Source of the DNA: Myxococcus sp.
GTDB taxonomy: Bacteria > Myxococcota > Myxococcia > Myxococcales > Myxococcaceae
Assembly (NCBI GenBank): GCA_014879945.1
Contig: JACSRE010000210.1
Location: 1 to 56,182 of the forward strand
Length of the DNA: 56,182 nt
Direction: 5' to 3'
Shown here piece by piece: positions 24,296 through 56,182 of the stretch (position 1 is its first letter; each line of letters opens with the position of its first letter). The notes under the pieces are model-generated. The model did not search any database. It saw nothing but the letters and a program-made list of their open reading frames with translations, and was not told the DNA's origin. A program made the translations under genes and the position numbers.

Positions 24296-24378
24296 GCGCT
24301 GAAGACGGTTTTCACGCGCCAGGCGGGTCGAGGGTCAGGCCCGGGTTGGGTACAGTCGCATCGCTCGGAGGCCTTCCC

Positions 24379-24723
24379 GTGAACCGCTCGTTCCTCGTCT
24401 CGTCGCTGCTGTCCCTCCTCGCCGTCGGAGGCGTCGTCACCTCGCTGCGCGCCGACGCCGGCGGCTCGTTCAACAAGGGCCAGTGCACGTTCAACGGCAA
24501 GAAGCTGTACGGCAAGATCCAGATCGTCTCGAGCTTCCCCGACGTGAAGGTGCAGGAGGTCTCGAGCTTCCCCGACGTCAAGGTGAAGAAGGTCACCTCG
24601 TTCCCCGACAAGTGCGGTGAGTGGCAGTTCGTGACCTCGTTCCCTGACACGAAGGTGCAGTTCGTCTCGTCGTTCCCCGACGTGAAGATCAAGTACGTCA
24701 CCTCGTTCCCGGGCGCGAACTGA
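24379..24723 (+). CDS. Small secreted SFPD-repeat protein, unknown function
   Basis: A 114-residue protein with a signal peptide (hydrophobic 5-22, cleavage near ADA) and then a short segment (GGSFNKGQCTFNGKKLYGK) followed by six tandem units of the form V-[ST]-S-F-P-[DG]-x-K-[VI]-x-x. The period is 11 residues, except one 13-residue unit that carries DKCGEW. Two cysteines, one before the repeats and one inside, could pair. Alternating hydrophobic residues (KVQFV, KIKYV) suggest a small beta-solenoid or beta-sheet roll; that is inference. The GTG at 24379 follows CGGAGG by 7 bases. The protease gene starts 5 bases after its stop, so the two are likely one operon. Confidence 0.82.
   Translation: MNRSFLVSSLLSLLAVGGVVTSLRADAGGSFNKGQCTFNGKKLYGKIQIVSSFPDVKVQEVSSFPDVKVKKVTSFPDKCGEWQFVTSFPDTKVQFVSSFPDVKIKYVTSFPGAN
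24526..24720 (+). repeat. Six tandem protein-coding repeats (SFPD units)
   Basis: Direct in-frame repeats of about 33 bases encoding V-[ST]-S-F-P units; the nucleotide copies (core GTCTCGAGCTTCCCCGACGT and variants) differ mostly at third positions, which indicates selection on the protein and not a recent slippage event. Confidence 0.8.
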
Positions 24724-54805: not shown

Positions 54806-55366
54806 ATGAAGCGCGTCGCGCTGCTCGGAGGCTCGTTCAACCCGCCGCACGTGGGCCACCTCATGGCCGCGCTGTACGTGCGGGCGACCCGCGCCGTCGA
54901 CGAGGTGTGGTTGGTGCCGGCCTTCAACCACCCCTTCGGGAAGGACCTGGCGGCCTTCGATGATCGCGTGTCGATGTGCGAGCTGATGGCGCAGGACTGC
55001 GGCCCGTGGCTCCAGGTCAGTCGCGCCGAGGCCGAGGTCGGTGGAGAGGGCCGCACCATCGAGCTGCTCGAGTGGCTGATTCCGCGCCACGCCGGCACGC
55101 GGTTCGAGTTCGTGATCGGGAGCGACATCCTGGGCGACCTGCCGAAGTGGAAGGCGTGGGACCGCATCTCGGAGCTGGTGGACGTCGTGGTGCTGCATCG
55201 CGCCGGGTACCCAGCCCGCGAGGCGATCGGCCCCCCGATGGCCGAGGTGTCATCGACCGAGATTCGTCGGCAGATCGCGGCCGGTGCGCGGCCCGACGGC
55301 CTGGTGCCGCGCCGCGTGCTCGACTTCATCGCCGAGCGCGGGGTCCGGTGGAGCGCGGCGGGCTGA
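54806..55366 (+). CDS. nadD: Nicotinate-nucleotide adenylyltransferase
   Basis: Adenylates nicotinate mononucleotide in NAD synthesis. The 186-residue protein is of normal length with GGSFNPPHVGHL (8-19) including the HxGH motif H15-H18, the substrate-side segment VPAFNHPFGKD, FVIGSDILGDL, and SSTEIRRQI near the end, the nucleotidyltransferase ISSTxIR motif. The ATG at 54806 is one base after the previous stop. Its usual neighbours (obgE, proA, rsfS) are not here. It ends the TPR-NamZ-phosphoesterase-nadD run; the PilZ gene follows after 31 bases. Confidence 0.93.
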   Translation: MKRVALLGGSFNPPHVGHLMAALYVRATRAVDEVWLVPAFNHPFGKDLAAFDDRVSMCELMAQDCGPWLQVSRAEAEVGGEGRTIELLEWLIPRHAGTRFEFVIGSDILGDLPKWKAWDRISELVDVVVLHRAGYPAREAIGPPMAEVSSTEIRRQIAAGARPDGLVPRRVLDFIAERGVRWSAAG

Positions 55367-55397: not shown

Positions 55398-55859
55398 ATG
55401 GACGCCGAAGCGTGGATGATCAAGTTCAAGCAGGTGCATGAGGCCGCGAAGAAGTCGGGGTCGAACGACAACCATCGCGCCATGAAGGAAGAGCTCGCCA
55501 GGTCGCTGGTGCAGGCCCAGGGGTTGACGGTTCCCGATGGGCAGATGCACCGAAAGGCGTTCCGAATCGCGCAGGCGTGGCAGCTCGAGCTGAATGACAC
55601 GTACCGATGTCTGACGCGTGACGTGTCGGGAGGCGGCTTCAGCGCGCTGGTGCCGGCGAGCCTGAACGTCGGCGATGAGGTTCGGTTCTCGCTCAAGATC
55701 GGTGGCGAGCCGGTCACCGGGACCGCCACGGTCGTCGCCGCCATCAAGCAGCTGGGCAATTCGCGGGTGTCGTTCACGATCGGCTCGATGGACAAGGACC
55801 ACGTCGAGCGGTTCGAGAATGCGCTCTTTGACTGCGTGCTGAGCCGGTACGTCCGCTGA
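55398..55859 (+). CDS. PilZ-domain protein
   Basis: A 153-residue soluble protein with an N-terminal helical part (1-50) and a C-terminal PilZ domain (about 51-150). The binding motif is recognisable: R52-KAF-R56 (RxxxR) followed by D75-V-S-G-G-G-F (DxSxxG), so c-di-GMP binding is likely. The domain ends in the usual strands (GTATVVAAIKQLGNSRVSFTI). ATG at 55398 is chosen; the frame extends upstream within nadD. With the FHA-GGDEF enzyme at 16790 it is the second c-di-GMP component of the window, but the two genes are 38 kb apart. It is the last gene before the dif-like site. Confidence 0.85.
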   Translation: MDAEAWMIKFKQVHEAAKKSGSNDNHRAMKEELARSLVQAQGLTVPDGQMHRKAFRIAQAWQLELNDTYRCLTRDVSGGGFSALVPASLNVGDEVRFSLKIGGEPVTGTATVVAAIKQLGNSRVSFTIGSMDKDHVERFENALFDCVLSRYVR

Positions 55860-56035: not shown

Positions 56036-56063
56036 ACTTCGTATAATGAGCGTTATGTAAACT
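56036..56063 (+). other. dif site (XerC/XerD chromosome-dimer resolution site)
   Basis: 28-base sequence with dif architecture: left 11-base arm ACTTCGTATAA (XerC side), 6-base spacer TGAGCG (56047-56052), right 11-base arm TTATGTAAACT (XerD side, 56053-56063). The arms form an imperfect inverted repeat (7 of 11 positions). The right arm equals that of the Bacillus subtilis dif as I remember it, and the left arm differs from it at two positions; the inner ATAA...TTAT core is shared with E. coli dif. It is an AT-rich island in very GC-rich, gene-free DNA. The site would mark the replication terminus, where XerCD with FtsK resolve dimers. Confidence 0.85.
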
Positions 56064-56076
56064 ATGTGGCCCATTT

Positions 56077-56100
56077 CTCGGAGACCGTTTTCGGTCCGAG
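56077..56100. other. Bulged hairpin beside the dif-like site
   Basis: CTCGGA-GA-CCG (56077-56087) pairs with CGGTCCGAG (56092-56100) around a TTTT loop: nine base pairs with a two-base bulge. It begins 14 bases after the XerD arm. There is no T tract, so a terminator is unlikely. Confidence 0.5.
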
Positions 56101-56182
56101 CGCTCAGAGATCCCCGAGCTGACTCCAGAGCCAGCACCGCCTTCAGCGTGCTTCCCCTGCCTCCGATCGCAGTGCCTCGAGG

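Follow-up and report, generated by a model that had tools for sequence, protein, structure and literature searches.

The window, a stretch of 56,182 nucleotides from Myxococcus sp. corresponding to contig C246 of its assembly, carries close to its right end a chromosomal dif site, which is abutted by the left end of a mobile element encoding two recombinases and which is itself kept intact. We estimate the probability of this whole explanation at about 0.86. The dif site is where bacteria cut apart doubled chromosomes before division, and its presence puts this contig at the replication terminus of its chromosome. The site is an ordinary member of this known kind and had been recognized in the initial annotation, which missed the end of the mobile element beside it. 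The features on which our analysis relies are as follows.

54806–55366, plus strand: nadD, nicotinate-nucleotide adenylyltransferase (TIGR00482, over the cut-off)
55398–55859, plus strand: PilZ-domain gene (Pfam PF07238), left neighbour of dif in the genus, with synteny in G002, G004 and G006
1–56035, plus strand: 19 KOPS-type octamers GGGNAGGG, all toward dif, none on the minus strand
56036–56063, plus strand: dif, single copy in its own genome, conserved in genus and family, homologous to the published M. xanthus dif; XerC arm 56036–56046 (ACTTCGTATAA), centre 56047–56052 (TGAGCG), XerD arm 56053–56063 (TTATGTAAACT)
56053–56072, plus strand: putative attL junction, XerD arm TTATGTAAACT immediately followed by element arm ATGTGGCCC
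56064–56182, no strand assigned: left end of a type I dif-adjacent mobile element, beginning ATGTGGCCCATTTCTCGG; 96% copy in contig C250, homologous left ends in G018 and G002
56143–56181, minus strand: C-terminus of tyrosine recombinase B, last 12 codons (LEALRSEAGEAR) and stop; matches RDDLEALRSEAGRT plus stop of a G002 Phage_integrase protein

The dif site and the replication terminus

The 11-6-11 layout that had been proposed, with its conserved XerD arm, is found exactly at 56036–56063. When up to three mismatches are allowed, the 28-mer matches once in the window and in none of 100 shuffles, and the suggested search for further copies returned this single match in the whole assembly (G000; 7.72 Mb, 448 contigs, 98.67% complete), consistent with one copy per chromosome. 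The exact XerD arm likewise occurs once in 7.72 Mb, against about 0.07 occurrences expected from base composition. A relaxed dif pattern matched 87 of the 96 genomes of the family, nearly always once per genome, and reversed-pattern controls gave no matches in the same 96 genomes. The centre TGAGCG is common to the dif sites of genus mates. In the genus, dif sits between pilZ and meaB, and the order nadD-pilZ-dif-meaB is common to the genome of the window and to G002, G004 and G006. The description of the surroundings as a gene-free AT-rich patch was half right: the 28-mer is AT-rich (GC 0.32), but its flanks have 61–71% GC, and genes are absent only on the left, where pilZ ends at 55859; the right side has the end of a recombinase gene, at 56143.

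The arms match those of the B. subtilis dif at 9 of 11 (XerC) and 11 of 11 (XerD) positions. The XerD arm had been equated with the Bacillus one, and an identical arm was indeed found in many Bacillota. The initial annotation having compared the site with Bacillus, a chance AT-rich match to the dif consensus was also considered; this is refuted by the uniqueness of the site, its conservation at the homologous position across the family and the skew switch described below, and its probability is negligible. A comparison within the Myxococcota, also called for, gave a direct counterpart: the published dif of M. xanthus DK1622, AGGTCCGATAACATGCGTTATGTAAACT (Carnoy and Roten 2009, PMC2731167), has exactly the same XerD arm and is identical to sites that we found in several genomes of the family. 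Both sites share the 11-6-11 layout, the terminus position and a host with XerC and XerD; they differ in the XerC arm, where 7 of 11 bases match, and in the centre, CATGCG in M. xanthus and TGAGCG in the window (PMC2731167). A likeness of the left arm of dif to loxP (ACTTCGTATA) was also considered and dropped because the right arm, as read from the sequence, is not the inverse of the left.

Folding around the dif site showed nothing unusual (z −1.1). In many genomes of the family a CCCTCGGAAACCCC-like stretch recurs about 12–25 bp upstream of the XerC arm; it is absent from the window. Elsewhere in the window, an ORF on the minus strand with repeated SGNEVTN-type motifs (24312–24701) lies between plus-strand genes.

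The claim that the window ends at the replication terminus is borne out by relatives, in which the homologous dif is antipodal to dnaA. In the 9.47-Mb contig of G016, the positions of dnaA (709 kb) and dif (5,521 kb) put dif 50.8% of the circle away from dnaA, and the corresponding distances in G028, G033 and G012 are 50.6, 51.0 and 51.1%. The proposed skew test was carried out in G016, the assembly of the window being split into 448 contigs and its own contig ending 119 bp past dif. Over forty 20-kb tiles, GC skew in G016 has a mainly positive sign ahead of dif and a negative one beyond it; in the two tiles flanking dif it is +0.026 and −0.060, with GGGNAGGG counts of 6:2 and 1:7, so that both skew and octamer polarity change sign at the homologous site, opposite oriC. 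The overall GC skew of the window is only +0.009, and its GGGNAGGG octamers run 19:0 toward dif (sign test, ~4e-6). By rough gene calls, 5 of these 19 are antisense within genes on the minus strand, so gene direction alone does not explain this bias. Together in one genome with these sequences are genes for XerD and the FtsK gamma domain, over curated cut-offs, and for XerC, which at 327.7 bits falls just under its curated cut-off of 335.15. The analysis also yields a family-wide set of dif sites with KOPS-type polarity.

The element end to the right of dif

A copy of positions 56060–56182 with 96% identity closes contig C250 (G000:C250:16999–17121), and the two contigs stop on the same base, as is usual at repeats. 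The contig of the window thus likely stops at 56182 because the element end is repeated elsewhere in the genome. The opposite end of the element reads GGGCCACAT-AAATGTAAACT in relatives, and the right end GGCCACATAAATGTAAACT was found in G000, G002, G018 and G067.

The window itself carries only 12 codons of recombinase B. In this genome recombinase B was found only on contig C365, which has dnaN and not meaB on its far flank, and for this reason the copy at the dif of the window may be partial: it may be incomplete, a left-end remnant only, and C250–C365 may represent a second insertion away from dif. Contig C365 was examined as a continuation of the window; its dnaN-containing far flank and the location of meaB on contig C102 argue against this. 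The first 600 bp of C102 hold transposase-like remnants, as read from translation, and a short match to the element end.

It could be argued that the 119 bp past dif are native chromosome and that the similar ends in C250, G018 and G002 represent a dispersed repeat. In favour of this, an intact recombinase gene could not be tied to the contig of the window, and the left end on C250 lies away from any dif-like site, with no dif-like 28-mer beside it. Against this, the recombinase C-terminus is encoded in frame, four genomes of the same genus (G005, G004, G001 and G003) have unrelated sequence to the right of dif, and G018 assembles an entire repeat of 5.2 kb bounded exactly by the ACT of dif and by GGGCCACATAAATGTAAACT. 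We regard native sequence as unlikely, and retain the reading of 56064–56182 as an element end.

Elements at dif in related genomes

A whole type I copy is assembled in G018, where two contigs, one ending at the chromosomal dif and the other at a dif-like site, overlap by 141 bp into one contig of 5,222 bp that starts with ACTACGTGGCCC, contains both recombinases and ends with GGGCCACATAAATGTAAACT. In G002 the sequence seen past dif in the window stands behind a second dif-like site, where it encodes the C-terminal end of one member of a pair of neighbouring Phage_integrase proteins. G067 and G080 have at their chromosomal dif another, more distant type of element (B ~40% and A ~50% identical), so that recombinase pairs or element ends directly follow dif or dif-like sites in G002, G018, G067 and G080. 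G080 and G079 offer the clearest example, an occupied and an empty site: in G080 an insert of 4,390 bp, which contains the recombinase pair and ends with GTCAACT, separates dif from AAGCCTCTGGGCG, whereas in G079 dif is directly joined to AAGCCTCTGGGCG, the right flanks being 90.9% identical over 985 bp. This shows that insertion was precise and left dif complete (28/28). Both G080, compared with G079, and G018 display site-specific insertion with no target duplication and a short footprint at one end.

The far-end GTCAACT of G080 differs from its local target GTAAACT and equals the end of the XerD arm in other dif sites of the family (G001, G003, G014 and G026); the second site of G018 keeps GTCTACT. 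To judge from these sequences, the far-end GTCAACT looks like a footprint brought along from a previous dif.

Few dif sites carry an element. Reading rightward from 82 main dif sites, we found one at about 8: a full recombinase pair at two (G067, G080), an element end cut by the contig end at two (G000, G018) and fragments at four (G006, G077, G081, G084). The contigs of G064 and G030 end one base past dif. Close relatives of recombinase B are present in five genomes of the family, and all five have an element end at a dif or dif-like site; G000 is one of them, with the element end at dif and recombinase B on the separate contig C365. A phylum-wide search added three genomes (G132, G193 and G194), in which no dif placement of recombinase B was found. 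Putative cargo includes RND, HlyD and OEP efflux genes with BlaI and BlaR1-like regulators in G067, between the recombinases and the next element end, and an ArsR regulator in G080.

These elements bear on a further possibility, namely that what the window holds is, in place of the chromosomal dif, a plasmid-borne site or one at which an IMEX-type element attaches by means of host XerCD. Relatives (G002, G018, G067, G079, G085 and G106) do have second dif-like sites on separate contigs, and an element end does abut the site of the window. However, the site is the only copy in its assembly, it stands in the gene order shared with G002, G004 and G006, its homologue in G016 lies at the skew switch, and the element brings its own recombinases. 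We therefore hold this possibility to be very improbable, and treat the site as the chromosomal dif.

Several observations were made alongside. The second dif-like sites of G106 (G106:C2:56887–56914; L224) and G085 (G085:C25:67891–67918; L222) have similar XerC arms (GTGTCGTATAA). That of G106 is on a 147-kb contig of an otherwise near-closed genome of 13.2 Mb and that of G085 on a 125-kb contig; these contigs are possibly large plasmids with a dif of their own. The sequence GTGCGCCAGGAAGCTGCAAAAGCCTGG begins directly after dif in G075 (L292) and after the second dif-like site in G079 (L221). The insert in G075, of 634 bp, resembles part of a DDE transposase, which suggests that more than one kind of element lands on the edge of dif. 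In G194, which belongs to another family, near-copies of the right end occur several times, on contigs C236, C23, C72 and C104 (L286–L289), and most of them run on into the same sequence, CCGGGGCC. Finally, in G067 (L284, 18590–18616) the right and left ends of type I elements are joined with no gap between them, as GGCCACATAAATGTAAACT-ATGTGGCCC; the fusion resembles a tandem junction and equals the circle joint predicted below.

Proposed mechanism and relation to known elements

At the chromosomal site, XerC and XerD would bind the two arms of dif, FtsK would pump DNA toward it along octamers such as GGGNAGGG, and strand exchange by XerCD would resolve chromosome dimers. The elements probably move as circles, whose joint, deduced from the two ends only, would have arms in inverted orientation and, between them, a spacer with GTAAACT or GTCAACT at its end; the predicted joint is GGGCCACATAAATGTAAACTATGTGGCCC. 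The element recombinases would recognize the outer end of the XerD arm and insert the element after its final T. Strand exchange at this position would leave dif intact at 28/28 on one side and a partial copy of the XerD arm at the far end, and in relatives the far end does carry a copy of the outer XerD-arm bases.

In a broader form, which we consider fairly probable, this would be a family of Myxococcota transposons with two recombinases and dif as their dedicated target: they would recognize the outer half of the XerD arm, insert next to the arm without disrupting it, carry a XerD-arm copy as a footprint and pile up with efflux-type cargo at the terminus and at secondary dif-like sites. The element suggests that transposons can use an important and widespread chromosomal site as a landing pad with the host unharmed, and that they may do so with their own recombinase pair and not with borrowed XerCD. 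It raises the questions whether XerD and the element recombinases are rivals for the XerD arm, and whether element movement is governed by timing at cell division.

G002, G018, G000 (C365), G067 and G080 each encode a pair of neighbouring tyrosine recombinases that have the catalytic R-H-R-Y set. The mechanical ORF of recombinase B has 621 aa, a length that we reject; from its likely start the protein has about 405–459 aa, which weakens the match to TnpB of Tn554. A small ORF of 94–103 aa precedes recombinase A and matched no family. Matches to solved structures were almost only to generic Xer and integrase proteins, and IMG/VR contained no relative of recombinase B.

Mobile DNA inserted at dif is known from IMEX phages and from Legionella LME-1, in which the host Xer enzyme recombines a dif mimic to bring about integration (PMC9765430). 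IMEX elements have no recombinase of their own and use host XerCD; the element described here differs from them and from LME-1 in encoding two recombinases itself and in having no more than a half-site at its far end (PMC9765430). A search of the open-access literature found no description of dif as a target of Tn554/SE-type transposons. With these transposons the element shares two adjacent catalytic tyrosine recombinases, target specificity, the lack of target duplication and donor-type bases at the far end, and a footprint carried from an earlier site has been reported for SE and Tn554 elements. It departs from them in its target, the outer XerD arm of dif, in a recombinase operon that reads toward the target-retaining end, in a recombinase B that is not a very large protein, and in being without a recognized TnpC, Tfp or Srap homologue. 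By these sequence features, the group of elements adjoining dif resembles a variant of the two-recombinase transposons.
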